In this document: in pieces, positions 5,962 to 45,652 of the stretch
How positions within the stretch are numbered: position 1 is the stretch's first letter
Layout of the letters: each line of letters starts with the position of its first letter
Origin: Halomonas sp. CH40
GTDB lineage: Bacteria; Pseudomonadota; Gammaproteobacteria; Pseudomonadales; Halomonadaceae
Assembly: GCA_041875495.1 (NCBI GenBank)
Contig: CP112982.1
Span: 2,356,001 to 2,420,000 of the forward strand
Direction: 5' to 3'
DNA length: 64,000 nucleotides
Translations under genes and position numbers: made by a program
The notes under the pieces: generated by a model
What the model was told of the DNA's origin: nothing
Databases searched by the model: none
Seen by the model: the letters and a program-made list of their open reading frames with translations, nothing else

Positions 5962-7098
5962 CTAGACCCCAAAACCAGCGGCGCCCAGCCCAGGGGCCAG
6001 TGAGCTGGCGTCATCACACAGGCGCACCTTGAGGGTGGCGAACTCGCGCCGCAAGGGGTAATCAGCGCGGCAGCGATCAAAGGCGTTGCCAATCGCTTGG
6101 TGTTGCATCTCCCGCGCCAAGCGGTCGTGATCGCGGCGCGGGTCGTAAACCGCTCGCATGCACAGCCGTAGAGCGTCTTCGCTGGGTATGGCCTGTTGCA
6201 AGGTTAGTTCGCCAAGCGCTGGTGGCGGGCAGATATCGGCCAGCGTCAACGGGCTTTGGCGACCCAAATGCCAGGCCAGGGCATGATGAATCATCAGGCT
6301 CCCGCGCAGCTTGCCATCCAGGCTGTAGCCCGCTACATGGGGTGTTGCTAGAGCGGCTAACGCATGTAATTGTGGATCAATCTCCGGTTCGTTTTCCCAT
6401 ACGTCGAGCACAGCAGTAAGATCCGCCTGCTGGGTCAAGCGTTCCGCCAGGGCGGCGCTATCCATACAGTCACCGCGCCCGGCGTTCACCACTATGCTGC
6501 CTGGTTTGAGCGCATGGATCTCTGCGGCTCCCAGCAGATGGCGCGTCCTGTAAGGGCCTTCCGTGACCAGCGGGGTATGCAGGCAGAGCACATCACAGTG
6601 GCTGATCAGCGTTTGCAGACTTTCAAAGCCTGCGCTGCCTTCCTGGGCCGCTCGCGGCGGGTCACAGGCCAATACCTCGACACCTAGCGCCTGCAAGCGA
6701 GCCTGCAGGCGGCTGCCCACGTTACCCACGCCAACAACTCCCACGCAGCGCTGGGTTAATGACCACCCTTGGCGCTCAGCAAGGGTTAACAGGCTGGCCA
6801 GCACGTAATCCACCACCGCCTCGGCGTTACACCCAGGAGCGCTGGCAAATGCAATCTCACGTGCTTTCAGGTAGGCGGTATCAATATGATCGGTGCCTAT
6901 GGTGCAGGTGCCCACAAAGCGCACCGGGCTATCTGCCAGTAGTGCTTGATTGACCTGGGTCACCGAGCGCACCACAAGGGCATCGGCATCCTTTAGATGC
7001 CGGGCGGTAATCTCGCGGCCCGGCAGGCGGAGCACGTCGCCAAGCGCAGCAAAGCAGGCCTCACTGGCAGGGATATTGGCATCAACGACAAGTTTCAT
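5962..7098 (-). CDS. pdxB: Erythronate-4-phosphate dehydrogenase PdxB
   Basis: NAD-dependent 2-hydroxyacid dehydrogenase of about 379 residues that oxidises 4-phosphoerythronate in the DXP-dependent pyridoxal phosphate pathway. The start at 7098 gives the typical N-terminus MKLVVDANIPASE; in-frame starts at 7110 and 7158 are possible. Visible are the GTCTIGTDHID loop, the Rossmann motif VGVVGVGNVGSRL, the catalytic arginine in NAGRGD, the glutamate in VWENEPEID and the histidine in ATPHVAGYS. The C-terminal dimerisation domain distinguishes PdxB from SerA and related dehydrogenases. It has no gene directly upstream on its strand. Confidence 0.94.
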   Translation of the reverse strand: MKLVVDANIPASEACFAALGDVLRLPGREITARHLKDADALVVRSVTQVNQALLADSPVRFVGTCTIGTDHIDTAYLKAREIAFASAPGCNAEAVVDYVLASLLTLAERQGWSLTQRCVGVVGVGNVGSRLQARLQALGVEVLACDPPRAAQEGSAGFESLQTLISHCDVLCLHTPLVTEGPYRTRHLLGAAEIHALKPGSIVVNAGRGDCMDSAALAERLTQQADLTAVLDVWENEPEIDPQLHALAALATPHVAGYSLDGKLRGSLMIHHALAWHLGRQSPLTLADICPPPALGELTLQQAIPSEDALRLCMRAVYDPRRDHDRLAREMQHQAIGNAFDRCRADYPLRREFATLKVRLCDDASSLAPGLGAAGFGV

Positions 7099-7183
7099 AG
7101 CGTTTTTCATCTTGGGCTTTACAATGGGCGCTCGGCTGCGCAAGGCACCGGCAGACAACGCGCAATCAACAAGAGGACAAGGT

Positions 7184-7465
7184 GTGATCGTACGCTGGGA
7201 AACCGACCATGACTATGTGCTGGTGCATATTCATCAGGATATGTTTGGCGACTGGATCTTCAGCCGCGCCTGGGGGCAGATTGGCACCCAGTTCGGCGGC
7301 CTTAAACACCAATTGGCAGAAAGCCGCGAACAGGCCCGGATGTGGCTGGACGACGAGAGCACCATTCAGTCCTCGCGTGGCTTTCGCAAGGTGCTGGATG
7401 TGGACGATGACTCCCCGGAAGGCCAGGAAGCCATGCGCCAGCTCTCACTGCTGGATGCCCTCTAG
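7184..7465 (+). CDS. Small WGR-like domain protein (93 aa)
   Basis: Starts at GTG 7184 with AGAGGA about seven bases upstream; the frame is open further upstream but overlaps pdxB. The product matches the pattern of a stand-alone WGR-type domain: an RWE opening, the HIHQDMFGDWIFSRAWGQIG core with paired tryptophans, then a basic/acidic helical tail. WGR domains bind nucleic acid ends in PARP-family and bacterial proteins, but the role of this short version is unknown. Its last four bases overlap the convergent glutaredoxin-like gene. It is divergent from pdxB. Confidence 0.7.
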   Translation: MIVRWETDHDYVLVHIHQDMFGDWIFSRAWGQIGTQFGGLKHQLAESREQARMWLDDESTIQSSRGFRKVLDVDDDSPEGQEAMRQLSLLDAL

Positions 7466-7797: not shown

Positions 7798-10031
7798 GCC
7801 GCCTCCTTGTGACGCAAAAGGAAGACATGGTGCAGGTTATGGCGGCGCTGGAAATCAGGGTCAAAGGTCTTGGCGGAAATATCCTCCACCTTGAATTCTT
7901 CGCGTAAGGTGCCATCCAGCTCGAAACGCCGCTGATTGTTGGAGAACACCAGAGTGCCCTCCGGCATCAGGCGCGCCATGGCCAATCGCACCAGTTGCGG
8001 ATGGTCACGCTGAATATCCAGGGTATCGCGCATTTTCTTCGAGTTGGAAAACGTCGGCGGGTCCATGAAGATAAGATCAAACTGGGTGCTGGCGGTTTCC
8101 AGCCACTTGAAGCAGTCATCATGTATGACTCTGTGACGGCTAGGATCAAGCCCATTGAGGGCAAAGTTGTCCTGGGCCCAGCTCAGATAGGTGTTGGACA
8201 TATCGACACTGACGCTGTCACTGGCGCCACCCAGGGCCGCATGCACCGTGGCTGACGCCGTATAACAGAACAGGTTGAGAAAGCGTTTGCCCTGCGCCAT
8301 CTCACCCAGCAGACGCCGCACCGGACGATGATCCAGAAACAGCCCCGTATCCAGATAGTCACGCAGGTTGACCCATAGGCGTGCGGGTCCTTCCTGCACC
8401 TCGAAACGCTCGCCGCTGGCATCACGCTTCTGATATTGCGACTTGCCAGCCTGACGCTCGCGCTGCTTGACATAAATCCGGCTGGCGTCCACTGCCAAGG
8501 CGTGAGGCAGGACTTCAAGGGCGTCAAACAGGCGCTTCTGGGCCTGGGCGGGGTTCACCGAGCGCGGCGGCATATATTCCTGAACGTGTACCCGGTCGGC
8601 GTAGATATCAATGGCCAGGGCAAATTCCGGCATATCGGCATCGTACAGTCGATAGCAGCTTTCACAGCTTTGTTTGAGCCATTTCTTCAGGCGCTTCTGG
8701 TTCTTTTTCAGCCGGTTGGCGAACATCTGGGCGTTATCAGACGAAGCTTGCTGTGGCGCATCTTCCGCCCCCTGTGAGGGAGCATCGCTTGACGTTGACG
8801 CGGCATGGCTGTCAGCGCTCTGGGCAGAGGTCCTGTACGCAGTGTCAGCGCCAATTTCCATTAACAGCAGCTTGGCATCCAGCGGGCCATTTTTCAGCGC
8901 ATACTGCTTGTGAGCTCTCAGCCCTAGCCGGTGGCCAAGATCCGGATTGCCAGTGAACACAGCCAGCGTCCAGCCGGGGAACAGCGCTTTGGCTTTTTCG
9001 CCCAGGGTCGCGTAAAGGCCGACCAGCTCCGGCAACTCCCCCAGCCGCTCGCCGTAAGGCGGATTGGTGATCAGCAGACCTGATGCTGATGCCAGACCTT
9101 CCGGGCGTTCAAGCTGGGCAACCCCCTGGCCATGAAAGGTGATCAGCGCCGGAATACCTGCGCGCATGGCGTTGGCCTTGGCCGCCGATAAGGCCGCCGG
9201 GCTTTGGTCAAAGCCGAACAGTGCATTCTTGCAACGTTTGCGGCCAATGCTGGCCCGCGCCTGGGCTTCACGCTGTAATTCTTCCCACACCGCTTGCTGG
9301 TGATGCGCCCAGCCGTGAAAACCAAAGCGCCGACGGTTCAGGTTAGGCGCCTGATCTGCTGCCATCAGCGCCGCCTCAATCAGCAGAGTGCCTGCCCCAC
9401 AGAGCGGGTCAATCAAAGGCTCACCAGCTTTGGCTCGGGCTTGCCAGCCCGCACGCACCAGCAAGGCAGCAGCAAGGTTTTCCTTGAGGGGCGCATGCCC
9501 CACATCCAGACGATACCCCCGCCGATGCAGGCTTTCCCCGGACAGGTCGATGCCCAGAGTCAGGTTGCTGCGGTGCAGATGAGCGTAAAGTCGCATATCC
9601 GGGGATTTGGTATCCACCTGTGGCCGCTCGGCGCCCGCCAGCGCCATGGCGTCCACCACGCCATCCTTGACCGTCTGGGCGCCAAAGCGCGTATGGCGGA
9701 TATGCTCACTGCGGCCATGGAAGTCGACCGCCAGGGTTTTGCCTGCTGCGATATGCTCGGCCCAAGGCACCACAGTGACAGCGCTGAGCAGCTGCGCGGC
9801 GGTATCCACCATGGACGCCCGCTGCAAAATGACAATCACCCGGTTGGCCAAGCGTGACCACAGACACAGGCGATACGCCGTCTCCAGGCTGGCGCTGACA
9901 TAAATACCTGCCACCGTGGTTTTACCCGGCGTGGCGCCCAGCTGAATCAGCTCTTCTTCCAGCAGTTGCTCGATGCCTTTTGGGCAGGTCACCAGCAGGT
10001 CAAGTGCTTCGTTTTGATATTGCTCGGTCAT
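7794..10031 (-). CDS. rlmKL: Bifunctional 23S rRNA methyltransferase RlmKL
   Basis: A fused enzyme of 745 residues that modifies two guanines in 23S rRNA: m2G2445 by the N-terminal RlmL half and m7G2069 by the C-terminal RlmK half. The N-terminal THUMP region is followed by the first methyltransferase with DPLCGAGTLLIEAAL (about 208-222) and NPPYGER (about 325). The second methyltransferase has LNLFCYTASATVHAALG (about 586-602) and FMDPPTFSNSKKM (about 655). A Ser/Ala/Gln-rich linker near residues 395-430 joins the halves and makes the protein slightly longer than the roughly 700-residue E. coli enzyme. It is the first gene of a unit with the glutaredoxin-like gene. Confidence 0.96.
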   Translation of the reverse strand: MTEQYQNEALDLLVTCPKGIEQLLEEELIQLGATPGKTTVAGIYVSASLETAYRLCLWSRLANRVIVILQRASMVDTAAQLLSAVTVVPWAEHIAAGKTLAVDFHGRSEHIRHTRFGAQTVKDGVVDAMALAGAERPQVDTKSPDMRLYAHLHRSNLTLGIDLSGESLHRRGYRLDVGHAPLKENLAAALLVRAGWQARAKAGEPLIDPLCGAGTLLIEAALMAADQAPNLNRRRFGFHGWAHHQQAVWEELQREAQARASIGRKRCKNALFGFDQSPAALSAAKANAMRAGIPALITFHGQGVAQLERPEGLASASGLLITNPPYGERLGELPELVGLYATLGEKAKALFPGWTLAVFTGNPDLGHRLGLRAHKQYALKNGPLDAKLLLMEIGADTAYRTSAQSADSHAASTSSDAPSQGAEDAPQQASSDNAQMFANRLKKNQKRLKKWLKQSCESCYRLYDADMPEFALAIDIYADRVHVQEYMPPRSVNPAQAQKRLFDALEVLPHALAVDASRIYVKQRERQAGKSQYQKRDASGERFEVQEGPARLWVNLRDYLDTGLFLDHRPVRRLLGEMAQGKRFLNLFCYTASATVHAALGGASDSVSVDMSNTYLSWAQDNFALNGLDPSRHRVIHDDCFKWLETASTQFDLIFMDPPTFSNSKKMRDTLDIQRDHPQLVRLAMARLMPEGTLVFSNNQRRFELDGTLREEFKVEDISAKTFDPDFQRRHNLHHVFLLRHKEAA

Positions 10032-10437
10032 AATTACTCAATCTTGGGCGCTTGATCATGGCGAATCAAGCGGGGTGATCATCGTCTGGCAGCGGCGTTT
10101 CCAGGCTGATATTACTATTTATGTCAATTCCATGTAGCTCTTATGACAATTTAATGGTCGACAAACCCTGGCCTTATGGTCTAACAATAAAGGGGTAGCT
10201 ACAGAATAACGCATGCGTTTGTTGTCGGGGATTCAGGGTTCGATTTTTGGCTCATTTTTTTGATTCACGACAACCATATGGCGTTGGGGTTGATGTTTCA
10301 GAAATGCAGGTTTGCTGCGTTCAGCACGTGAGTGCTTTACATCATCAGCATGACCTATCTCACCCCAACAGCCAGCTCCTGAAATGGCGGTTTTTTGCTA
10401 TTTCTCATCAAAGGCTTTCATTAGAAGAGGTTAGCCA
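10032..10437. other. Intergenic region between divergent rlmKL and rmf
   Basis: About 400 bases holding the divergent promoters. An open frame at 10247-10441 has no ribosome binding site and cysteine/histidine-rich, unrecognisable content, so it is not called. The segment 10271-10380 contains complementary GTTGGGGTTGA and TCACCCCAAC stretches that could fold a structured rmf leader. AGAGG before ATG 10438 is the rmf ribosome binding site. No firm promoter elements were identified. Confidence 0.4.
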
Positions 10438-11888: not shown

Positions 11889-14800
11889 TCAGGCTTCGCT
11901 ATCACTTTCAGCCAAGTCCACCAGTTCACGCACGGCCACGGCAAAGAGAGCAAAACCGCTTTCACTGCCGCTGCGCACTTCCTCTATCAGGCGGCACCAG
12001 CGGCGATGAAGATCGGCATGCTGATCCAGCCATTGTGCCACCCGCTCGTCCACGCCGTGGTTACCGGTTTCAAGCTTCAACACGCTGGTTGTCAGCGCCA
12101 GCTGCTGGCGGTCGATATCATCGCGGAAGGTTTCCCGCGCCTGGGCCTGCCAGGCATCGCGCACATCCAACCGGGTGACCTGCTGAATCATCCAGGGCAG
12201 TTCCAGGCGGCTGCCGACTTCATAGAACACCTCGGCAACGCGCTGGGGCTTTTCGTTGACATGGCGTGCCGCCTGGATGATACCCAGCCCCGCATACAGG
12301 CTGGGCGCTGCAGCAACGCTTCCTGCCAGGGTTTCAGGCACGCCGGCCTCAAGCAGCTCTTCACGGCGCTGCTCCCAGGCGGCCAGCTCTTCACCGCTAA
12401 GCAGCTCACCGATTCCTTCCTGCAGCTGAGCCAGGCGCGGGCCAAAGTATTCCACGGCATCCTGGGTGGAAAGCCCCAGATGCTGACGCAGGAACCAACG
12501 GGTGGCGCGACGCACCATACGCATCAGGTCCAGCATCATCCCGTACTGCACCTGACTGGATACGATGTTGTCCAGCGCTTCAATTTCCGCCCACAGGCTG
12601 GGCAGGTTAAAGCTGTCACGAGCAATGATGTAGGCGCGAGCAATATCAGCGCGACCAGCCCCGGTAGAGTCTATCAGGCGGCGTACGAAGACAACGCCCA
12701 TATGATCCACCAGATCATTGGCGACCTGGGTCGCGACAATTTCACGCTTCAGGCGATGCTCGTACATCTCGGTGAGATAGTTATCCACCAGTGGCTGTGG
12801 GAAGAGGCGCTCAAGATGACGATGAATATAGGGGTCATCCGGCACCTCGGAGACGATCAGGTCACCTTTCAGCGTGCTCTTGGCGTAAGAGATCAACACC
12901 GAGAGTTCTGGCAGGCTCATCCCCTCGCCGCTGCCTGAACGCTCTTTCAGGACGTCATCCTGCGGCAGGAACTCAAGCTCGCGGTCAATCTGCCCAACGG
13001 CTTCAAGCTCACTGATAAAGCGACGATAAGGGCCAATACCCTGCTGGGAGATCAGCGCCGACAGATCCAGGGCCTGGGTCTGGCGATAGTTGTCGAGAAT
13101 GACCAGATCTGCCACTTCATCGGTCATATCCGCCAGCAGCTTATTACGCTGCTTCTCGGTCATATCACCGCGCTTGACGATTTCATCAATCAGGATCTTG
13201 ATATTGACTTCATGGTCAGAGCAATTCACGCCACCGGCGTTATCAATGAAATCGGTGTAAACCAGCACGCCCTTATTGGCAGCCTCCATGCGGCCCAGCT
13301 GGGTACATCCCAGATTACCGCCCTCACCGATAACGCGGCAGTTCAGCTCACAGCCATTGATACGCAAGGCATCATTGGCTTTGTCGCCTACCTCGGCGTC
13401 GGTTTCCTCCGAGCCTTTCACATAGGTGCCAATACCGCCGTTCCAGAACAGGTCAATCTTCGCCTTGAGCATGGCACGGATCAGGTCATTGGGGGCCATC
13501 TGGGATTCACTGATGCCAAAGACGTCCTGCATCTGCGGCGTGATGCTGATGGATTTGGCACTCCGGCTGAAGATACCGCCCCCTTCAGAAATCAGCGACT
13601 TGTCAAAATCTTCCCAGCTGGAACGCGGCATAGTGAACAGGCGCTGGCGTTCAGCAAAGGTCGTAGCAGCATTCGGGTTGGGGTCAACAAAGATATGCAG
13701 GTGGTTGAAGGCACCCACCAGCTGAATATGTTCAGACAGCAGCATGCCGTTGCCGAATACATCGCCGCCCATATCACCAACACCGACTACGGTGAAGTTT
13801 TCGCGCTGGGTGTTCAGCCCCAGATTACGGAAATGGCGCTCAACCGATTCCCAGGCGCCCCGCGCGGTAATGCCCATCTTTTTGTGGTCATAACCATTGG
13901 CGCCGCCGGAGGCAAAGGCATCCCCCAGCCAGTGGCCGTACTCGACGGAGATTTCGTTGGCAATATCCGAAAACGTTGCCGTTCCCTTATCGGCGGCCAC
14001 CACCAGATAGGCATCATCGTCATCATGACGTACCACATTGTCTGGCGGCACAACGCCACTGCCCACCAGGTTGTCAGTGACATCCAGCAAGGCACGAATA
14101 AAGGTCTTGTAACAGGCAATACCTTCTTTCTGCACGGTTTCCCTGTCAGCATTTTCGGGCATCCGCTTACAGACAAAGCCACCTTTGGCACCCACCGGCA
14201 CAATCACGGCGTTTTTCACCTGCTGCGCCTTGACCAGCCCCAGCACCTCGGTGCGGAAGTCTTCCCGGCGGTCAGACCAGCGCAGCCCGCCACGGGCAAC
14301 CTTACCGCCGCGCAGGTGAACACCTTCCACCCTGGGCGAACAGACGAAGATCTCATAGGCAGGCCGCGGCTTGGGCATGCCGGTCACCTTGGAAGGCTCC
14401 AGCTTGTAGGCAATGTAATCCTTGAAGCGCCCCTGCTCACTCAGCTGATAGTAGTTGGTACGCAAGGTCGCCTGAACCAGTTCCACAAAGCGTCGCACCA
14501 GCTGGTCATCATTGAGGCTGGTAACCTGTTCAAGGTATTCATTAATACGTGCAAGACAGGCACTGCTGTCGCGATCCTCGCACAGAGGGTCAAAGCGCAG
14601 ACGGAACAGCTCCACCAACTCACGGGTAATATGCGGGTAGTTGGCCAGGGTAGAGGCAATATAGTTTTGCGACATACCAAAGCGAATCTGCTTGAGGTAA
14701 CGCGCGTAGCCGCGCAGCATCGCTACTTCACGCCAGTCCAGGTTGGCACCAATAATCAGCCGGTTGAAGGCATCGTTATCGGCTTCACCGCCCCAGATCC

Positions 14801-37734: not shown

Positions 37735-38916
37735 ATGAGCCAACGCGATAAGCCGCTAACCCTGCTAGGGGATCTTACCCCGGCTGAATTTATGGCCGAA
37801 TACTGGCAACAGAAGCCGCTGCTTATTCGCGGCGCCTTTCCCGACTTTCTCAGCCCGCTGGAGGCTGACGAGCTGGCCGGGCTTGCCTGTGAAGAAGGCA
37901 TAGAAGCGCGCCTGGTTGAGGAGAATGGTCCGAACGGCCCCTGGCAGGTTTCTCATGGGCCTTTTGATGACGCCACCTTTGAACGCCTGCCTGAGGAAAA
38001 GTGGAGCCTGCTGGTGCAAGCCGTTGACCACTATGTGCCTTCGGTGGCGGCCCTGATGGATGAGTTTGATTTCCTGCCCCGCTGGCGCCTGGATGACATC
38101 ATGATCAGCTATGCTCCTCCCGGCGGCAGCGTTGGCCCACATATTGACCAGTATGATGTGTTCCTGCTGCAGGCCAGCGGCCAGCGCCGCTGGCAGTTGG
38201 GCGGCAAGACCGCCGACGATGCGGCCATCATTCCCGGCATCGACTTGCGTATCCTCAAGGATTTCGAGGTTGAAGCCGGCTCTGACTGGGTGCTGGAACC
38301 TGGCGACATGCTCTACCTTCCGCCGGGCTGGGCGCACCACGGCGTCAGCCAGACCGATGACTGCATGACGATTTCCGTCGGTTTCCGCGCGCCTTCCGCG
38401 GATGAAGCCGTTACGTCCTATGCGGACTACCTGGGCGAGCAGCTGCTGCCCTCCCAACGCTACAGCGATGCCGCCATGGCACCGGCTGACGATGCCAGCG
38501 AGATTGACGATGCCGCGCTGGAGCGCATGCGTCAGCTGATTTTTGAAACCCTGGATAACCCGACTCAACTCAGCCAGTGGTTTGGCCGTGTGATGACTCA
38601 GCCCAAATACGTTGACCAGCTGGTGCCGCATGACCCGCCCCTGAGCGTGCCTGAGCTTGTTGCTGCACTACAGGGTGATTCACCCCTCTACCATGCCCCA
38701 GGCTCACGTCTGGCCTGGCGCGCCGATGGTGATACCGTCACCCTGTTTGCCGATGGCGATGGCTACCCCTGCAGCCGCGAGCTGGCCCAGCGCCTGGCCA
38801 ACCCGGCGCCGATTCATGAAGATGTTCTGAGCTTGGCAGGCGCTGATGCCTTGCTGACCCAGCTGGTGAATGTCGGCAGCCTCTACTGGCCCCAGGAGGA
38901 GGATGACGACGAGTGA
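37735..38916 (+). CDS. roxA: Ribosomal protein uL16 arginine 3-hydroxylase (RoxA/YcfD)
   Basis: A JmjC/cupin-type Fe(II) 2-oxoglutarate oxygenase of 393 residues. The characterised homologue, YcfD, hydroxylates an arginine of ribosomal protein L16. The iron site is visible as HIDQYDVF (HxD, near 137-139) and the later histidine in PPGWAHHGVSQTDD. The C-terminal winged-helix region follows. ATG 37735 with CAGGAC upstream is chosen; an upstream in-frame start at 37708 is weaker. Its stop overlaps the next gene's GTG start. Confidence 0.93.
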   Translation: MSQRDKPLTLLGDLTPAEFMAEYWQQKPLLIRGAFPDFLSPLEADELAGLACEEGIEARLVEENGPNGPWQVSHGPFDDATFERLPEEKWSLLVQAVDHYVPSVAALMDEFDFLPRWRLDDIMISYAPPGGSVGPHIDQYDVFLLQASGQRRWQLGGKTADDAAIIPGIDLRILKDFEVEAGSDWVLEPGDMLYLPPGWAHHGVSQTDDCMTISVGFRAPSADEAVTSYADYLGEQLLPSQRYSDAAMAPADDASEIDDAALERMRQLIFETLDNPTQLSQWFGRVMTQPKYVDQLVPHDPPLSVPELVAALQGDSPLYHAPGSRLAWRADGDTVTLFADGDGYPCSRELAQRLANPAPIHEDVLSLAGADALLTQLVNVGSLYWPQEEDDDE

Positions 38917-39347
38917 CCCTGACCATTGAAACCGGGCGCTGGGAAGCGCTCGGATCACATGCGGCACCTATCCGGCGCCTTGTCTTTGTTATCGAGCAGC
39001 AAGTGCCGGAGGAGGAAGAATGGGATGGCATGGACAACCAATGCACCCATTTTATTGCCTGGCAGAACGCGGATGGCGATCAACCCAGCCCCATCGGCAC
39101 GGCGCGCCTGCTACCGGATGGTCATATCGGCCGGGTGGCTGTGCTGACTGAGCAACGCGGCCAGGGGGTCGGCGTTGCCTTGATGCAGGCCGCCATTGAC
39201 GCTGCTCGCCAGCAGGGCCACGCCAAGGTAGTGCTCAGCGCCCAGCTGCATGCCTTGGCGTTCTATGAACATCTAGGCTTTGTCGCCTATGGCGACACCT
39301 TCATGGATGCCGGCATCCCTCATCGCGAGATGGTGCTCACCCTATAG
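38913..39347 (+). CDS. GNAT-family N-acetyltransferase
   Basis: A 144-residue GCN5-related acetyltransferase starting at GTG 38913, which overlaps the roxA stop by four bases. The acetyl-CoA loop is RVAVLTEQRGQGVGVALMQAAI, followed by LSAQLHALAFYEHLGFVAYGD, as in ElaA/YjcF-like proteins. The substrate is not known. The overlap with roxA shows it belongs to the chromosomal operon and not to the integron that begins just after its stop. Confidence 0.88.
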   Translation: MTLTIETGRWEALGSHAAPIRRLVFVIEQQVPEEEEWDGMDNQCTHFIAWQNADGDQPSPIGTARLLPDGHIGRVAVLTEQRGQGVGVALMQAAIDAARQQGHAKVVLSAQLHALAFYEHLGFVAYGDTFMDAGIPHREMVLTL

Positions 39348-39350
39348 AAC

Positions 39351-39453
39351 ACGTAACGCCCTGCTTTCTTAACCGCTGAACCAGGCCTAGGGTATTGGCA
39401 GGTGTTGGCGCGCCCGCAATCACGTGCTTGTCGCGTGGATTGCATTGTTATGC
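39351..39453 (-). repeat. attC-like site 5 (terminal, about 103 bp)
   Basis: Bounded on the plus strand by ACGTAAC (39351-39357) and GTTATGC (39447-39453). In array orientation (minus) it reads GCATAAC ... GTTACGT. The interior is imperfectly palindromic. It is the last site, abutting the stop of the chromosomal GNAT gene. The R' box deviates from GTTRRRY at one position. Confidence 0.65.
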
Positions 39454-39500
39454 CAGCTGAACCAAAATATACCCATTATTGGTACTAGTGGGGTGACACC

Positions 39501-40028
39501 ATGCAAAAGAACACCAGCATCACTCTAGGCCAACATTTTGATGCATTCATTGCAGAACAGCTCAAAAATGGCCGATACAGCTCAACCAGCGAGGTAGTTC
39601 GTGCAGGATTACGCCTGCTTGAGGAGTCTGAAACACGCCTGACCACACTTCGTAAACTGCTCAAGGAAGGCGAGGAAAGTGGTTTTGAAGACTACTCCTA
39701 TGGCTCGTTTATTCGTGAACTGGACAACGAAAGACGCTGGTGCCAACTTTCCAGGAAGGCCAAAGCTGACCTCAAATCTATTGCCCTATACACGGAGCGT
39801 TAATGGGGCCGAGATCAACGAAACCACTATGTTCTCCAGTTCGATCAATGCTTCCACCGCCTGGCTGACAATCCGAACTTGGGGCAAGCTTGCGATGAGA
39901 TAAGTCAAGGCTACCGACAGTATCCTCAGGGGAGCCACATCCTATTTTATCGGCTAACCACCGAGGGTATTGTTGAGATTATCCGCATCCTACACAAACG
40001 TATGTTGCCTGAGGCGCATCTGCTTTAG
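39501..40028 (+). pseudogene. Decayed parD-parE toxin-antitoxin module fused in one frame with an internal stop
   Basis: Translation from ATG 39501 (GGGGTGA upstream) gives a full ParD-like ribbon-helix-helix antitoxin: KNTSITLGQHFDAFIAEQL, then YSSTSEVVRAGLRLLEESE. After ELDNER the same frame runs straight into ParE-type toxin sequence (QLSRKAKADLKSIALYTER) without a stop or new start. A TAA at 39801-39803 interrupts ParE. After it the same frame continues for 75 codons (WGRDQRNHYVLQFDQCF ... IIRILHKRMLPEAHLL) to TAG 40026-40028. The toxin is therefore broken by a nonsense codon and the antitoxin carries a foreign tail. The coding strand is opposite to the array direction. Confidence 0.85.
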
Positions 40029-40029
40029 G

Positions 40030-40107
40030 GCGTAACGCCCGCCGCACGAGCCGATTTGGAGCCGCAGCGCGGCAGAAAAACGGTCACCGTGCTACCACTT
40101 GTTATGG
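40030..40107 (-). repeat. attC-like site 4 (78 bp)
   Basis: Bounded by GCGTAAC (40030-40036) and GTTATGG (40101-40107) on the plus strand. The interior has the same GCCGATTTGGAGCCGC-like core as site 2, with a GCCGCAGCGCGGC-like hairpin top. Read in array orientation: CCATAAC ... GTTACGC. Confidence 0.8.
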
Positions 40108-40157
40108 GGTGAGACATCCTGCATGATTTACCTATGTCTATCTCCGCGGGGTGTCAA

Positions 40158-40394
40158 ATGACTACGCTCGAATTCGAAACCCTTAGAAACGCGGCTATGA
40201 CGCTCTCCGAACAGGAGCGCGCCGCTTTAGCCAAAGTTCTAGTGGCAAGCCTGGATGGCCCTGCAGATGAAGGTGTTGCAGAAGCGTGGGACCGCGAGAT
40301 TCGCCGACGAATCCACCAGATTGATTCAGGAGAAGCAGAGCTGCTCGATGCAAAAGAAGTTCTGTCCCGCGCCAGAGATCGAATTAGAGGCTGA
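40158..40394 (+). CDS. Addiction-module antitoxin component (cassette 4)
   Basis: A 78-residue acidic helical protein from ATG 40158; an upstream in-frame start at 40134 is possible. The sequence LSEQERAALAKVLVASLDGP, then AEAWDREIRRRIHQIDSGE and the end VLSRARDRI, is the typical pattern of the short addiction-module component family that pairs with RelE/ParE toxins. It is six bases upstream of the toxin gene. Both are on the plus strand, against the array direction, and so must have their own promoter in the attC 4 side region. Confidence 0.82.
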   Translation: MTTLEFETLRNAAMTLSEQERAALAKVLVASLDGPADEGVAEAWDREIRRRIHQIDSGEAELLDAKEVLSRARDRIRG

Positions 40395-40399
40395 TCATT

Positions 40400-40711
40400 T
40401 TGAGAGTAAGAATCAGCAGGGAAGCTGCTACAGAATTGGAAGAAGCCGCTTCCTGGTACGAGCAGGAAGATGCGGGGCTTGGAGAACGCCTGATCAATGC
40501 TTTCGAACAAGCAATAGAGCTACTTGAGGGGCCCCATCCCCCACTGGTTCCAGTCAACCATGACGTCGCAGAATCCGGAGCAAAACAAGTCATCCTGCAT
40601 AGACTCCCCTTCTACCTGGTAACCATCGAAAGAAACCAAGCTATCATAGTCGTTGCTTTTGCTCACCACTCCAGAAAGCCGGGCTACTGGCGGAGACGGC
40701 TCTCCCCATAA
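40400..40711 (+). CDS. RelE/ParE-superfamily toxin (cassette 4)
   Basis: A 103-residue toxin beginning at TTG 40400. ISREAATELEEAASWYEQED is the ParE/RelE helical hairpin, and the beta sheet continues as VILHRLPFYLVTIERNQAIIVVAFAHHSRKPGYW, ending with basic residues as in this family. The last codons run into the R box of attC 3: the stop TAA (40709-40711) is part of CCATAAC. It is paired with the antitoxin gene just upstream. Whether it targets gyrase or mRNA is not decidable from the sequence. Confidence 0.85.
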   Translation: MRVRISREAATELEEAASWYEQEDAGLGERLINAFEQAIELLEGPHPPLVPVNHDVAESGAKQVILHRLPFYLVTIERNQAIIVVAFAHHSRKPGYWRRRLSP

Positions 40712-40831
40712 CGCTGCGTTTAGAGGTGAGCAACGCTACCACCTTACCTAAACCATTGTGCCGTAAACACTAAAGCCGATTCAAACCGAAAATGCCTACG
40801 TTGCGAATCCGTCTTAAACGCCTTGTTATGC
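40706..40831 (-). repeat. attC-like site 3 (126 bp, Vibrio-repeat-like)
   Basis: Bounded by CCATAAC (40706-40712) and GTTATGC (40825-40831) on the plus strand. In array orientation it begins GCATAACAAGGCGTTTAAGA, then GGATTCGCAACG, and closes with GCGTTGCTCACCTC before the GCGTTATGG end. From memory this arrangement and length match the long Vibrio-type attC repeats. It fixes the orientation of the array as minus. Confidence 0.85.
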
Positions 40832-40833
40832 GT

Positions 40834-41109
40834 TTACTCAAAGATTTCATAATGACGTTCGACATTCACCGTCACTTTATCCCAATGGGATGTTTTCACT
40901 CTATTCTGGTGATATTCAAACGCAGACTTATCTATGAATTCCTCGTAAACATCGAAGCGGCTAGGATTTTCCGAATTTTCAGTCACGCTAAACGTTATAC
41001 ACCCAGGCTCTTTAAGAGTAAGACGTTTATGATTTTCCAACTCAATTTTAATTACTTCAAGTTCTGACTCAGGAATTAAAATAACACCTTTCAATGTTAC
41101 TTTTGACAT
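40834..41109 (-). CDS. Antibiotic-biosynthesis-monooxygenase (ABM) fold protein (cassette 3)
   Basis: A 91-residue ferredoxin-like-fold protein from ATG 41109 with AGGGAT upstream. The pattern KVTLKGVILIPESELEVI, then EPGCITFSVTENSENPSRFDVYEEFIDKSAFEYHQ and a final HYEIF, is that of YgiN/ABM small dimeric proteins, some of which oxidise quinols or degrade haem. The family has few fixed catalytic residues, so an activity cannot be assigned. It is the only cassette in the array that is not a toxin-antitoxin module. It is coded in the array direction and its stop is three bases from attC 3. Confidence 0.8.
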   Translation of the reverse strand: MSKVTLKGVILIPESELEVIKIELENHKRLTLKEPGCITFSVTENSENPSRFDVYEEFIDKSAFEYHQNRVKTSHWDKVTVNVERHYEIFE

Positions 41110-41124
41110 AAATATCCCTATTAC

Positions 41125-41202
41125 GCCTAACGCCCGACTCACTCGCCGGTTTGGAGCCGCGAAGCGGTGGAGAAATTGTCCGGCAACAGCAGTTGGTTAT
41201 GC
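41125..41202 (-). repeat. attC-like site 2 (78 bp)
   Basis: Bounded by GCCTAAC (41125-41131) and GTTATGC (41196-41202). In array orientation it ends in GTTAGGC, a perfect GTTRRRY R' box. The centre is a GCCGCGAAGCGG hairpin. The yoeB stop lies one base outside the site. Confidence 0.88.
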
Positions 41203-41203
41203 A

Positions 41204-41467
41204 TTATTCGTAGTGGCTCCAGAGCCTGAGAACTTTCACCATTCGCTCGTCATCGAGCACTTGATAGACCAGACGATGCTGAATATTGATGCGGCGTGAA
41301 TAGGCCCCCGCAAGATCACCAATGAGCTTCTCAAACGGAGGCGGCTTGCGGTACGGGTCTTCCGATAGCAACGCCAACAGTTCCTGCGCTTTTGGTTTGA
41401 GGCCGCTGGAGGCCAGTTTCTTTGCATCTTTCTGGGCTTGCTTGGTGTAAACCAACTTCCATGTCAC
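41204..41467 (-). CDS. yoeB: YoeB-family mRNA interferase toxin (cassette 2)
   Basis: An 87-residue RelE-fold toxin of the Txe/YoeB family, which cleaves mRNA on the ribosome. WKLVYTKQAQKDAKKLASSGLK starts the fold. The catalytic-type residues follow in FEKLIGDLAGAYSRRINIQHRLVYQV and the C-terminus KVLRLWSHYE, where the histidine and tyrosine match YoeB active-site positions. Its start overlaps the antitoxin stop by four bases. The frame is intact, so the module could be active. Confidence 0.92.
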   Translation of the reverse strand: MTWKLVYTKQAQKDAKKLASSGLKPKAQELLALLSEDPYRKPPPFEKLIGDLAGAYSRRINIQHRLVYQVLDDERMVKVLRLWSHYE

Positions 41468-41706
41468 CAGTCCAGTTCCTTATTGCATTCATCAACGGGG
41501 GTATCCATCCCCTCACGAATAGACTCCCGCATACCGGGTACTGAGAGCAGGTAAAGTGTTTCCTGAATTGCAGACCAGTCTTCCTCGGCAACCAGGACGG
41601 CTTTGTTCCGCTTACCCATTATGACGATTGGTTGGTGAGACTCGGCGGCCTCGTCAATCAACCTATAAAGGTTGCTGCGAGCCTCAGTTGCTGTGATTCC
41701 GGTCAT
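41464..41706 (-). CDS. yefM: YefM/Phd-family antitoxin (cassette 2)
   Basis: An 80-residue Phd/YefM antitoxin. The DNA-binding N-terminus ITATEARSNLYRLIDEAAESH is followed by PIVIMGKRNKAVLVAEEDW, and an acidic C-terminal tail (REGMDTPVDECNKELDW) should wrap the toxin. AGAGGTG precedes ATG 41706. It sits directly upstream of yoeB in the array direction and probably represses its own promoter. Confidence 0.93.
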   Translation of the reverse strand: MTGITATEARSNLYRLIDEAAESHQPIVIMGKRNKAVLVAEEDWSAIQETLYLLSVPGMRESIREGMDTPVDECNKELDW

Positions 41707-41778
41707 GACGCACCTCTTGCGTGTTCAAACTTGCACCAAGTGTATGCCTCTGGACACGTACGTCAAGACGAACGCTTT

Positions 41779-41835
41779 GCATAACGCTCCGCTAAAGTGC
41801 ACCGCTCGCGGTGTCATTTTTCAGCGGCTTGCTAG
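41779..41835 (-). repeat. attC-like site 1 (about 57 bp, degenerate R'' box)
   Basis: The R' side is clear: GCATAAC (41779-41785), reading GTTATGC in array orientation. A hairpin is formed by CGCTAAAGTGCACCGC and GCGGTGTCATTTTTCAGCG around TC. The expected R'' partner on the right is only GCTTGC, without TAAC. The brnA coding end (stop 41792-41794) lies inside the site. Confidence 0.55.
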
Positions 41836-42061
41836 CAGCTTCAGCACGCAAGCGCTCGACTAGCCAAACTTTAATAATGGATTGGCGAGTGACCCCAATT
41901 CGAGCAGCTTCGCGATCAAGCGATTCAACTACCCATGCAGGAAAGTCGACATTAATGCGCTTCGCTTCATGATTTACTCGACGTGCAGTTGTTACATCAA
42001 GATCGCCAATGATGTCTTCTACACCCTCATCAAAATTTGAATCAAATTCATTAGCTTTCAT
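41792..42061 (-). CDS. brnA: BrnA-type antitoxin (cassette 1)
   Basis: An 89-residue antitoxin with an acidic N-terminus and a ribbon-helix-helix domain: AKRINVDFPAWVVESLDREAARIGVTRQSIIKVWLVERL. The toxin-first order is typical of brnTA, and the start overlaps the end of brnT by 11 bases with GAGG upstream. The last ten or so residues (KPLKNDTASGAL) are encoded by the attC palindrome, so the antitoxin may have gained its tail from the site. Confidence 0.88.
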   Translation of the reverse strand: MKANEFDSNFDEGVEDIIGDLDVTTARRVNHEAKRINVDFPAWVVESLDREAARIGVTRQSIIKVWLVERLRAEAASKPLKNDTASGAL

Positions 42062-42314
42062 ATAGCTCTACCTCACTCTTGCGTGAACGTCTTACCGAAA
42101 TAATCCGTATTTTTTCACCTCGGTAAGTGATCACGGCAGACCAGTGCTTATCACCTATAAGACCAATGACAAGGTAACGAGGTTCATCATCTGACTTAGC
42201 TTGAATCTCTAGTAAATCTTGGTCTTGCCACAAGGCCTGTGCATCATGGAAATCAATTCCATGCTTGTGGAGGTTCACTTGGCTTTTTTCACCATCAAAT
42301 TCAAACGTGCTCAT
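42051..42314 (-). CDS. brnT: BrnT-type ribonuclease toxin (cassette 1)
   Basis: An 87-residue toxin of the BrnT family, a RelE-like RNase. It opens with FEFDGEKSQVNLHKHGIDFHDAQALWQD, the standard BrnT start with a conserved HKHG. RYLVIGLIGDKHWSAVITYRGEKIRIISVRRSRKSE supplies the sheet and the catalytic arginines. It is the first cassette after attI, coded in the array direction. The antitoxin follows with overlap. Confidence 0.93.
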   Translation of the reverse strand: MSTFEFDGEKSQVNLHKHGIDFHDAQALWQDQDLLEIQAKSDDEPRYLVIGLIGDKHWSAVITYRGEKIRIISVRRSRKSEVELYES

Positions 42315-42368
42315 GAGTATAAATTATTCCTTTTTTACTCATTTAGCAAGGAAGTGGGTATGATTGAC

Positions 42369-42375
42369 TGCTAAC
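42369..42375 (-). other. Candidate attI recombination core
   Basis: On the minus strand the bases read GTTAGCA, near the GTTRRRY core, 55 bases before the brnT start and about 200 bases before intI. It is the only near-consensus box between intI and the first cassette, so it is my best guess for the attI crossover. Confidence 0.45.
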
Positions 42376-42396
42376 AGTGATTATACGCCTCGCTAC

Positions 42397-42436
42397 AAAA
42401 CCCCAATCAACGCTACGGCACATTCACTGGGGTTTT
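42397..42436. terminator. Bidirectional hairpin between attI and intI
   Basis: AAAACCCCA (42397-42405) and TGGGGTTTT (42428-42436) are exact complements with A- and T-rich sides in both directions. The loop is 22 bases. It could stop transcription passing from intI toward the cassettes and the reverse. Confidence 0.65.
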
Positions 42437-42517
42437 ATAGCCAACCAATTTGACTCTACCCCATTGATTCCCAAGAGAGCAAAGCCAATTTTGGCAGCAT
42501 ATCCAAAATTCGCGTGC

Positions 42518-42562
42518 TTGCGTGTTTTTCCCTGCTCAATAATACTGTATTCATGAACAGTA
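42518..42562 (+). promoter_or_regulatory. intI promoter with LexA (SOS) box
   Basis: TACTGTATTCATGAACAGTA (42543-42562) contains CTGT-N8-ACAG, a full match to the LexA operator consensus. A plausible -35 TTGCGT (42518-42523) and -10 AATACT (42541-42546) are 17 bases apart. The box covers the -10 and the start region, ending 15 bases before ATG 42578. SOS control of integron integrases by LexA is established in Vibrio and class 1 integrons. Confidence 0.85.
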
Positions 42563-42577
42563 ATAAGAGTGACTCTT

Positions 42578-43522
42578 ATGAAACTAATGGAACGCGTCAA
42601 GGCGACCCTCCGGGTCAAGCGCTATAGCCTTCGTACTGAGAAAACCTATTGCTACTGGATTCGCTTTTTCATTCGTTTCCACAGAATGCAGCATCCTGCC
42701 AATATGGCGGGCGATGAAGTGCGGCAATTTTTGGAATATCTCGCGTTAGAAAGGCACGTTGCTGCGGCAACACAAAACCAAGCACTCAATGCTATCGTGT
42801 TTCTGTATCGCCACGTGCTAGATCAACCGCTGGGTGAGGTGGGTAATTTTAGCCGGGCTAAGCGCCCTAAACGCTTACCTGTCGTGCTTTCCCACCAAGA
42901 GGTGATGGATGTGTTTGAGCACCTGTCCGGCTCCATGCTCCTGATTGCATCGCTGATGTACGGCTCGGGGTTACGAGTCTCCGAAGCTTGTCGGTTACGC
43001 GTAAAAGATATCGATTTTGCGCGCCACGTCATCACTGTCCGAGCAGGCAAAGGCAATAAAGACCGCACGACGCTGTTGCCACCCTCATGCGCTCAACCAT
43101 TACATACCCATATACAAATCGCTGAACAACAGCTGACCTCTCGCATTGAAACAAACGCAATTCCTGTATCATTACCCTACGCGCTGGATAGAAAATATCC
43201 GAATGCAGGCATTTCCCTCGCATGGCAGTGGCTTTTTCCTTCATCCAAGCCCTGTTTCGATGAGTGGGGGCGTGTCGTGCTACATCACATCCATACTTCT
43301 GCCGTACAAAAAGCCGTTAAATATGCCATGCGCTCCTCTTCTTTAACGCGCCCAGGCTCATGCCACTCTTTACGGCATAGTTTCGCGACTCAGCTGCTTA
43401 GCCAAGGCACTGACATTCGCACGGTTCAAGAGTTGCTAGGCCATAAAAGCATCGAAACCACCCAAATATATACCCATGTATTGGGCAAGGGCTTTGCCGG
43501 TGTACGCAGCCCTTTGGAATAA
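42578..43522 (+). CDS. intI: Integron integrase IntI (tyrosine recombinase)
   Basis: Site-specific recombinase of 314 residues from ATG 42578, with AAGAG eight bases upstream; a GTG at 42569 is also in frame. The N-terminal SAM-like domain is followed by the catalytic domain: R133 in GSGLRVSEA, K near 161 in GKGNKDRT, H263-x-x-R266 in HSLRHSFATQLL, H289 in LLGHKS and the nucleophile Y298 in YTHVL. The integron-specific insertion that separates IntI from XerC/D is present as ISLAWQWLFPSSKPC (about 212-226), followed by HHIHTSAVQKAVK. All catalytic residues are intact. It diverges from the cassette array. Confidence 0.95.
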   Translation: MKLMERVKATLRVKRYSLRTEKTYCYWIRFFIRFHRMQHPANMAGDEVRQFLEYLALERHVAAATQNQALNAIVFLYRHVLDQPLGEVGNFSRAKRPKRLPVVLSHQEVMDVFEHLSGSMLLIASLMYGSGLRVSEACRLRVKDIDFARHVITVRAGKGNKDRTTLLPPSCAQPLHTHIQIAEQQLTSRIETNAIPVSLPYALDRKYPNAGISLAWQWLFPSSKPCFDEWGRVVLHHIHTSAVQKAVKYAMRSSSLTRPGSCHSLRHSFATQLLSQGTDIRTVQELLGHKSIETTQIYTHVLGKGFAGVRSPLE

Positions 43523-44053
43523 GGGAGATAAAGGGAAATCGTGGGATTCGAGCACGCTACCGCAAGAGAATGCTGGTCTTCAGCCTCTTCCCTGGCGGTT
43601 ACAGGCGGCCTGCGCCGTGGTCGTGTTTTCTCTACCGACTCGACCTCGCAGGGCTGCCACTCTCTTAAGCTTAGACCCACAAGCATGCTGATGAACAGGC
43701 TAAATGTTATCTAACGTATCCATATCGTAACACACAGGGTTACCAGGTACCGTTACCTCTCTCTGGAAATATCACTACATAGCTGCACCTTTAATGGCAG
43801 TCGTGTAGTCAAGCTACAACCCTGTCTGCCCCCAAGGAGCAATTGTTGCAGTGCATTGATTGGGCGATAGTGTCTACATCGCCGCATCACTGAAAGGCAT
43901 TAGATCAAACGACGCAGATTTAGACCTTTGGATAAGCGACGTTTGACTAAAAGACACAGGCCACCAAATCACTGATGCTAGACGCAATCTCGCAGGTGCA
44001 GCATTAGCCATTACGTATCTGCGAACGATAATCATGACACTGAGGGATAGCAA
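43523..44053. other. Gene-poor region between intI and aceA
   Basis: About 530 bases. Short frames on both strands (43426-43691) lack ribosome binding sites and recognisable content. The right part (after about 43780) should hold the aceA promoter; TGAGGGA before ATG 44054 is the aceA ribosome binding site. No attC box, transposon end or tRNA was seen. The integron's right boundary must lie here, but I cannot place it. Confidence 0.45.
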
Positions 44054-45652
44054 ATGACCGGTCTACTCGACGAAATCAAAGCACTCAAGCAACTGCGTGA
44101 TGCGCAAGGCAGCAAGTGGGACAACATTACGGCAGAACACGCCGCCCGCATGCGCGTTCAGAACCGTTTTCATACCGGCCTGGATATCGCTCGTTACACT
44201 GCCAAGATCATGCGTGAAGATATGGCGGCTTACGATGCTGACACTTCAAAGTACACCCAGTCACTTGGCTGCTGGCATGGCTTTATCGGTCAGCAGAAGC
44301 TGATCTCGATCAAAAAGCATTTCGGCACCACCAAGCGCAGCTACCTCTACCTTTCTGGCTGGATGGTTGCCGCTCTGCGTTCTGAATTCGGCCCGCTGCC
44401 TGATCAGTCCATGCACGAGAAAACCTCCGTCGCTGACCTGATCGAAGAGCTCTACACCTTCCTCAGACAAGCTGATGCCTGGGAACTTAACCACCTATTC
44501 CGTGCGCTGGATGATGCCAAAGAAGCCGGTGACGAAGTCAAGCAGCGTGATCTGATCAAGCAGATCGACAGCCACGAAACCCATGTTGTGCCGATCATTG
44601 CCGATATTGATGCCGGTTTCGGTAACGCTGAAGCCACCTACCTGCTGGCCAAGAAGTTCATTGAAGCCGGTGCCTGCTGTATCCAGCTGGAAAACCAGGT
44701 ATCCGATGAGAAGCAGTGCGGCCACCAGGACGGCAAGGTGACCGTTCCTCACGAGGACTTCATCGCCAAGATCAATGCCGTACGTTACGCCTTCCTTGAG
44801 CTGGGCGTTGAAGATGGCGTTATCGTCGCGCGTACCGACTCCCTCGGCGCTGGCCTGACCCAGAAGATTGCTGTTACCAATGAGCCAGGTGACCTGGGCG
44901 ACCAGTACAACAGCTACCTCGACGGTGACTTCATTGATTCTCCTGAAGAGATCAACAACGGCGACGTGGTCATCAAGTCAGAAGGCAAGCTGAAAAAGGT
45001 CAAGCGTCTGGCATCCGGCCTTTACCAGTTCAAGCCGGGCACCGGCGAAGATCGCGTGGTGCTCGACTGCATCACCAGCCTGCAAAACGGTGCCGACCTT
45101 TTGTGGATCGAGACCGAGAAGCCTCACGTTGGCCAGATTGCCGGCATGGTTAACCGCATTCGTGAAGTTTGCCCGGATGCCAAGCTGGTCTACAACAACT
45201 CACCGTCGTTCAACTGGACGCTCAACTTCCGCCAGCAGGTGTTTGATGCCTGGCAGGAAGAAGGCAAGGATGTATCTGCCTACGAGCGCGACAAGCTGAT
45301 GAGCGAAGAGTACGACAACACCGAGCTTGGCCAGCTGGCCGACGAGTGGACGCGTAACTTCCAGCGTGATGGTGCTCGCGAAGCGGGTATCTTCCACCAC
45401 CTGATCACCCTGCCGACCTACCACACGGCGGCGCTGTCTACCGACAACCTGGCCAAGGGCTACTTTGGCGACGAAGGCATGCTGGCCTACGTGGCAGGCG
45501 TTCAGCGTCAGGAAATCCGTCAGGGCATCGCCACAGTTCGTCACCAGGATATGGCTGGCTCCAACATCGGCGATGATCACAAGGAATTCTTCCACGGTGA
45601 TGCAGCGCTGAAAGCAGGCGGTAAAGATAACACCATGAATCAGTTCGGCTAA
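44054..45652 (+). CDS. aceA: Isocitrate lyase AceA
   Basis: Glyoxylate-shunt enzyme of 532 residues cleaving isocitrate to glyoxylate and succinate. The length and the EKQCGHQDGKVTVPHEDF active-site segment (catalytic cysteine near residue 223) fit the long form found in Pseudomonas-type bacteria rather than the 430-residue E. coli form. Also visible are ADIDAGFGNAEATYLLAKKFIEAGA, IVARTDSLGA and the loop KLVYNNSPSFNWTLNFR. It is monocistronic, with a hairpin terminator after it. Malate synthase is not in the window. Confidence 0.97.
   Translation: MTGLLDEIKALKQLRDAQGSKWDNITAEHAARMRVQNRFHTGLDIARYTAKIMREDMAAYDADTSKYTQSLGCWHGFIGQQKLISIKKHFGTTKRSYLYLSGWMVAALRSEFGPLPDQSMHEKTSVADLIEELYTFLRQADAWELNHLFRALDDAKEAGDEVKQRDLIKQIDSHETHVVPIIADIDAGFGNAEATYLLAKKFIEAGACCIQLENQVSDEKQCGHQDGKVTVPHEDFIAKINAVRYAFLELGVEDGVIVARTDSLGAGLTQKIAVTNEPGDLGDQYNSYLDGDFIDSPEEINNGDVVIKSEGKLKKVKRLASGLYQFKPGTGEDRVVLDCITSLQNGADLLWIETEKPHVGQIAGMVNRIREVCPDAKLVYNNSPSFNWTLNFRQQVFDAWQEEGKDVSAYERDKLMSEEYDNTELGQLADEWTRNFQRDGAREAGIFHHLITLPTYHTAALSTDNLAKGYFGDEGMLAYVAGVQRQEIRQGIATVRHQDMAGSNIGDDHKEFFHGDAALKAGGKDNTMNQFG

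Follow-up and report, generated by a model that had tools for sequence, protein, structure and literature searches.

In this work, we analyzed a stretch of 64,000 nucleotides (the window) from the chromosome of Halomonas sp. CH40 (contig CP112982.1, positions 2,356,001 to 2,420,000), in which positions 39352-43522 are confirmed to be a complete integron, composed of an integron integrase (IntI), its attI site, five cassettes and five attC sites that share one orientation. Taken as an integron, it is unremarkable. Two points were absent from the preliminary description of this DNA: the attI-intI part (the platform) appears to be a recent replacement, and the same genome carries seven further attI matches without intI. 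The best explanation, which we consider probable, is that of a complete Halomonadaceae-type integron with a swapped platform, whose single IntI serves orphan attI (attI lacking intI) in trans; this action in trans, and its persistence today, are what we infer, while the data show the anatomy of the integron, the identity pattern behind the swap, how many orphan attI there are and how they are oriented, and a cassette difference confined between exact crossovers. A shade less firmly, we favor the view that the Halomonadaceae possess a distributed integron, in which scattered attI ports, mostly with their own array and partly inherited in place across species, would depend on one integrase acting in trans, itself subject to gain, loss and exchange between species. 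In Vreelandella, the number of such ports would typically be four to eight attI.

The window's genome (G000 in our numbering, in which G denotes genomes and L fetched loci) is complete, a single contig of 3.67 Mb, and belongs to Vreelandella; conserved genes flank the integron on both sides of this Halomonadaceae chromosome. We take these and other genes used below to be aceA, purB, tenA, thiC and rlmF. The preliminary description had proposed a small chromosomal integron with an intact IntI between a GNAT gene and aceA, and the complete anatomy found here bears this out. The intI frame is intact (314 aa) and scores 395 bits with TIGR02249, for which we used a cut-off of 265 bits, and it is the sole match over this cut-off in the genome. 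In a tree, the encoded IntI clusters with integron integrases and is separate from the genome's two Xer-like recombinases, whose branches are long; a grouping with Xer-like enzymes, set beforehand as the outcome that would speak against an integron, is not what the tree gives. Among 20 related rows, 17 share a common sequence from the intI side to AACAG and diverge past it, the exceptions being L173, which reads AACAA, and L166 and L179, which are without a site at that place. On the array strand the attI crossover is TG|TTA.

The cassette borders were examined with a covariance model of attC (R1), built from 28 sites out of 44 candidates in the arrays of relatives; selection was by length and visual inspection, and the sites comprise 27 of Halomonadaceae loci and one of Halospina, with none from the window. 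Of the cells in the given structure, 90.2% form pairs in the training sites, versus 66% when shuffled and 28-38% when slid. Since paired arms were required of these sites, the covariation of R1 is partly built in and the independent evidence for attC is the scan of the window (all 64 kb, both strands, filters off). Its five best matches are the cassette borders, all on the minus strand, and the next match has an E value of 0.5. The five attC-like sites described earlier are thus matched by the model at all borders and in one orientation, four of them strongly; attC5 is a weak, probable attC site, because its E value of 0.08 stands beside a next match at 0.5. The features are as follows.

38913-39347, GNAT gene, left neighbor of the integron.
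39352..39453 (ends by eye), minus strand, probable attC5, distal array end beside the GNAT stop codon; R1 15.9 bits, E 0.08, for 39408-39453 only.
39501..39803, plus strand, parD antitoxin of cassette 5 (PF03693, TIGR02606).
40030..40107, minus strand, attC4; R1 49.1 bits, E 3.3e-11.
40134..40394, plus strand, Unstab_antitox antitoxin of cassette 4 (PF09720), gene opposing the array orientation.
40400..40711, plus strand, ParE-like toxin of cassette 4 (PF05016), gene opposing the array orientation.
40706..40831, minus strand, attC3, 126 bp; R1 22.1 bits, E 1.4e-3.
40834..41142, minus strand, ABM-domain small protein of cassette 3 (PF03992).
41125..41202, minus strand, attC2; R1 44.5 bits, E 6.6e-10.
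41204..41467, minus strand, yoeB toxin of cassette 2 (TIGR02116).
41464..41706, minus strand, yefM/phd antitoxin of cassette 2 (PF02604).
41779..41837, minus strand, attC1; R1 25.0 bits, E 2.1e-4.
41792..42061, minus strand, brnA antitoxin of cassette 1 (NF047399), its 3' end entering attC1.
42054..42314, minus strand, brnT toxin of cassette 1 (PF04365, E 1.5e-25).
42375..42577, no strand assigned, attI with leader and intI promoter region; crossover between 42374 and 42375; match to the attI model R2 (described below) at 42371-42540, E 4.9e-31.
42511..42524, plus strand, terminator-like hairpin followed by a T run; one found versus a mean of 0.6 in shuffles, present in most attI regions.
42545..42560, no strand assigned, CTGT-N8-ACAG box before intI, read from the sequence; its CTGTAT part is conserved beside intI and less so in orphans.
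42578..43522, plus strand, intI (Pfam PF00589, PF13495).
43475..43522, plus strand, intI 3' tail, resident (G008/Z-like) type, joined as a chimera to a G038-type body; switch, placed by eye, at about 43473 to 43484.
43523..43770, no strand assigned, resident integron flank, from intI to the native DNA upstream of aceA; 43531-43737 is 90% identical to G008.
44054-45652, aceA, right neighbor of the integron.

Four of the five cassettes are of toxin-antitoxin type. The genes of cassettes 4 and 5 lie on the strand opposite to the array while their attC are in array orientation, and the parD frame of cassette 5 continues, in a three-frame reading, into a parE with a stop-interrupted frame. The attC3 site is about 90% identical over 106 bp to a site of a Billgrantia array. 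The CTGT-N8-ACAG box is presumably LexA-box-like. A sigma-70 scan of 42200-42700 for a cassette promoter gave no promoter, and searches with Rfam (gathering threshold) and ARAGORN returned nothing. Folding of the five attC sites as single-stranded DNA (z from -1.8 to +0.5) did not separate them from shuffles; folding alone was uninformative, and we abandoned it as a criterion. A home-made attC scoring scan, which yielded about as much from Markov-shuffled sequence as from the window, was superseded by a stricter filter and R1.

The comparison of the aceA junction across the genus agrees with the earlier suggestion of an insertion at a conserved spot, as 18 of the 20 other Vreelandella junctions that were fetched have no integron (15 of them read base by base). 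Of the remaining two, that of G053 lies at a contig start, and that of the sister species G008 (aceA 97.4% and purB 98.0% identical to G000) carries an integron whose intI is of another type and has a large internal deletion. The brnTA cassette of G008 is 70% identical to that of the window and 92-93% identical to those of G045 and G069. Two further elements were seen in this G008 locus: a group II intron reverse transcriptase/maturase (L146:9143-10393; PF00078, PF08388) in cassette orientation downstream of the brnTA attC, which we take to resemble a group IIC-attC intron, and, between the broken intI and aceA, an element of about 280 bp (L146 ~7085-7365) resembling a miniature inverted-repeat transposable element, with inverted ends GGGCCTGTTGA...TCAACAGGCCCT. 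By eye, an attI copy in L166 (G034) is cut by a sequence with the same end as this element.

The platform of the window has another history. Its attI-intI type is the one found upstream of tenA-thiC in G038 and others: the intI body is 98.9% identical to that of G038 over 893 bp and the attI region 96.1%, versus 82.4% for aceA and 78.7% for purB, which is not the pattern of an intI inherited with the species. Compared block by block (60 bases each), the platform agrees with G038 at 95-100% from 42375 up to 43455, after which identity drops to 82% and 41%. In the tree, the window IntI groups with those of G038 and G065 (94/91) within a clade of tenA-thiC-locus integrases (98/94). No integron is present at the tenA-thiC site of G000 itself, where the flank shares 85-89% identity with its G038 counterpart. 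The last 40-45 bp of the window intI and the downstream flank are resident-like, native genus homology resuming near 43803 (computed) or near 43770 (by eye), and because of this resident-like end and flank we read the platform as swapped in by recombination. The simplest account would be homologous recombination between incoming DNA and a resident integron. The ancestor shared by G000 and G008 would have received an integron insertion between the GNAT gene and aceA; later, in G000, its attI-intI part would have been replaced from a G038-like species with an integron upstream of tenA-thiC, by homologous recombination with a crossover some 40-45 bp before the intI end.

To count attI, we used a sequence-only model (R2) trained on 24 intI-adjacent attI of relatives, G000 excluded; part of the candidates of each genome scan were scored, so that the counts are lower bounds. 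At E<=1e-5, R2 finds attI in 77 of 82 genus genomes, in at least 461 places (median 6), the five genomes with no match being G026, G039 and three less complete or fragmented ones. In the family, at least 234 of 275 genomes, spread over 17 of 24 genera, have matches. By comparison, 19 of the 82 and 63 of the 275 genomes possess an intI over the cut-off, some with internal stops or partial, and orphan attI are much commoner in the family than intI. G000 itself has eight attI matches at E<=0.01, two of them partial: that of the window and seven others, six of which have no intI downstream, with no integron-type match near any. At five of these seven, attC lie on the array side. The R1 scan of G000, in which 150 of 1347 candidates were scored, gave at least 14 matches at E<=10, namely three in the window array, ten at E<=0.018 and one at E 7; nine of the ten are in attI-bearing loci (L209-L213), the tenth being in L214, which has no attI.

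We then compared 40 attI loci without intact intI, chosen by us from the listed hits in mostly well assembled genomes. In 30 of them attC occur on the array side and strand, as do 60 of the 61 attC matches in these loci. An intI piece is retained in 12 and none was found in 28. Clusters of attC lacking integrases (CALIN), that is, without a nearby intI, describe these orphan arrays, some of which have a single attC and 12 of the 40 of which keep the intI piece mentioned. When grouped by their intI-side flanks, 14 loci belong to the tenA-thiC locus and ten, nine plus that of G000, to a locus we call P1. Two arrangements stood out in the fetched loci: an orphan attI of G000 (L212:6979-7151, ~3.156 Mb) is flanked on both sides by attC of the same orientation, and L168 of G071 has two attI regions (6403-6643 and 12149-12387), the second followed by a 42-aa intI piece, which looks like tandem integrons.

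P1 carries the argument for cassette change without an intI in cis. Its attI is present in ten species, and an intI piece was found at none of the ten loci, whereas the tenA-thiC locus has one in 9 of 14 cases (Fisher p 0.002). TGTTA is intact in nine of the ten, and the sequence on the array side differs among the ten species: in the ~3.5 kb compared beyond TGTTA, nothing matches on the same strand (E<=1e-6, >=60 bp) except roughly attC-sized stretches of 77-114 bp and longer segments, the latter being what we take as the distal flank. By eye, the same intI-less junction is common to G069, G020 and G036. Between G000 and G008, P1 is 93-96% identical on both sides and unrelated from the TG|TTA of attI to the G|TTAGG of the last attC. 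The difference, bounded exactly by two IntI crossover points, is a cassette exchange at an integrase-less attI, and intI would already have been absent from P1 when the cassettes changed. The pair L212/L278 of the same two genomes likewise has a clean attI crossover and different first cassettes. In G069, an 886-bp cassette is duplicated (L171:7950-8835 and 9335-10220, 99.9% identical, both ends CG|TT), as IntI would leave it, which may be a sign of an active integrase.

In G008, a segment 99.5-99.8% identical occurs at three attI loci (L278:4707-5783, L279:3789-4869 and L280:1-592), with a length of 1.08 kb in the first two and cut by the locus edge in the third. Its reading as a moving cassette was dropped, as it encodes a helix-turn-helix protein that we take to be IS630-like; it might be an insertion sequence favoring integron arrays. 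In L209 (G000, ~738 kb) the P1 array ends at rlmF, a gene located, in G060, on the distal side of the Y-locus array, and this suggests a chromosome rearrangement between arrays.

In the mechanism that we propose, IntI, probably under LexA control, would recombine the attC of circular cassettes with attI, leading to insertion, removal and reordering of cassettes that are small and mostly of toxin-antitoxin type. The integron would work like a sedentary one even though its intI was not inherited with the species, and the orphan attI would not be dead, as an IntI encoded elsewhere would use them in trans.

Several points weigh against this proposal. First, use in trans rests on sequence comparison, and separate intI losses at P1 after each lineage's last cassette change could account for what is seen there. 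Second, just two of the ten P1 genomes (G000 and G069) now hold an intI over the cut-off, so that past activity would be sufficient to explain what is seen. In addition, the P1 loci of G036, G069 and G033 were compared at the attI end only, their distal flank lying beyond the fetched 3.5 kb, and a further pair of G000 and G008 loci (L210/L279) says little because its crossover on the G008 side has been altered and a copy of an IS630-like sequence starts nearby. Besides, the 40 loci are our own choice and a non-random sample, and ten of them have no attC at E<=0.05. Finally, detection with an attI model itself favors conserved attI among the orphans, and in the conservation comparison they come from one genus while the intI-adjacent set comes from the family, which also flatters the orphans.

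The main rival takes up the first of these points and regards the orphans as a graveyard of late intI losses: each orphan attI would be what is left of an integron whose intI disappeared once its cassettes had changed for the last time, the attI being kept for the adjacent cassette promoter, with no action in trans. The intI pieces at 12 of the 40 fetched attI, the tenA-thiC locus with its stages from intact to deleted, and the proposal, in the accessible text of PMC9024848, that CALIN are degraded integrons all fit it. At P1, on the contrary, it has to face ten species without an intI piece, an intI-less junction shared by at least three of them and different cassettes, and would require intI to have been lost there late, cleanly and independently as many as ten times. 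The conservation of the orphans also bears on it. Across the 28 that lack an intI piece, conservation at attI positions 11-150 is as high as in intI-adjacent attI, and it drops from 151 on, that is, over the T run of the hairpin, the intI promoter, the putative LexA half-site and the intI start (comparing intI-adjacent with orphan attI, from 0.97 to 0.62 at 171-180 and from 0.70 to 0.15 at 211-220); R2 also spans 151-172, where the drop begins. Thus the attI core is kept, beyond the promoter side alone, subject to the sampling biases of the orphans given above. We regard late losses throughout as a serious but unlikely explanation.

In a second rival explanation, the attI-promoter segments would themselves move; they could, for instance, be cassettes of an unusual type whose front resembles attI, and would reach new places without intI. 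In 25 of the 28 loci lacking an intI piece, homology to the attI model stops at 145-197, before the intI start, the L212 orphan of G000 sits between cassettes, and Delta-attI cassettes have been described for mobile integrons (in the part of PMC12901181 that could be consulted). Against this, the two largest orphan groups are orthologous loci (14 and 10 members), which fits vertical inheritance, and the end zone is equally explained by lost constraint on the intI promoter, so that this explanation appears improbable. That the window simply holds an ordinary sedentary integron of the chromosome, inherited at its present site, with all else being noise, is scarcely credible in spite of its complete anatomy, as it is already contradicted by the identity pattern to G038 and the chimeric intI, and faces the 18 of 20 other junctions free of integron and the attI in 77 of 82 genomes at E<=1e-5.

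CALIN, their proposed origin from degraded integrons and mobilization in trans are treated in the literature (PMC9024848, PMC12444791, PMC9229058, PMC3607928 and PMC7923331, each in the sections accessible), and one attI per integron is the arrangement given in the accessible part of PMC3607928. In the literature searched, mostly without subscription papers and with several sources in part, no report of attI lacking intI was found, nor, within the same limits on subscription papers, any paper on Halomonas chromosomal integrons with attC. As far as the available text of PMC9024848 goes, IntegronFinder 2.0 detects no attI outside class 1, and because of this limit the attI heads of intI-less arrays would be overlooked.

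Integrons are usually described with one integrase and one attI. If the orphan attI are live, integrase-less arrays would gain a defined origin and a means to keep changing, the number of capture sites would be decoupled from the integrase, and one intI gained by exchange could revive many arrays together. The origin of CALIN would also become directly testable in halophiles, and we suggest attI models built per family as a way to reveal overlooked integron heads.

Sedentary chromosomal integrons, such as those of Vibrio, Pseudomonas and the ilvD locus of Xanthomonas, share with the integron of the window the IntI, the attI, a divergent array with attC in one orientation, toxin-antitoxin cassettes and a site between housekeeping genes. 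Unlike them, several attI-headed arrays occur here per chromosome with one integrase, and the platform is at different loci among congeneric species and appears to be swapped by recombination; Xanthomonas genomes with a retained intI consistently have it downstream of ilvD (PMC12444791, accessible sections). The orphan arrays resemble CALIN and their single-attC counterparts, SALIN, in consisting of attC cassettes with no intI nearby. CALIN positions are conserved across Xanthomonas species and CALIN are scattered in Shewanella, according to the portions of PMC12444791 and PMC9229058 available. Unlike CALIN and SALIN, the intI-less arrays described here start with a conserved, recognizable attI region. 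As in Shewanella integrons, where horizontal movement of intI within the genus is described (PMC9229058, in part), intI appears to have moved between congeneric species; unlike in Shewanella, the transfer would here have replaced the platform of a resident integron, leaving a chimeric intI. Finally, as in attG or off-target insertion (attG in the accessible text of PMC12444791), cassettes are found away from the integron, with the difference that the receiving sites are attI regions of ~170 bp and not short consensus sites.

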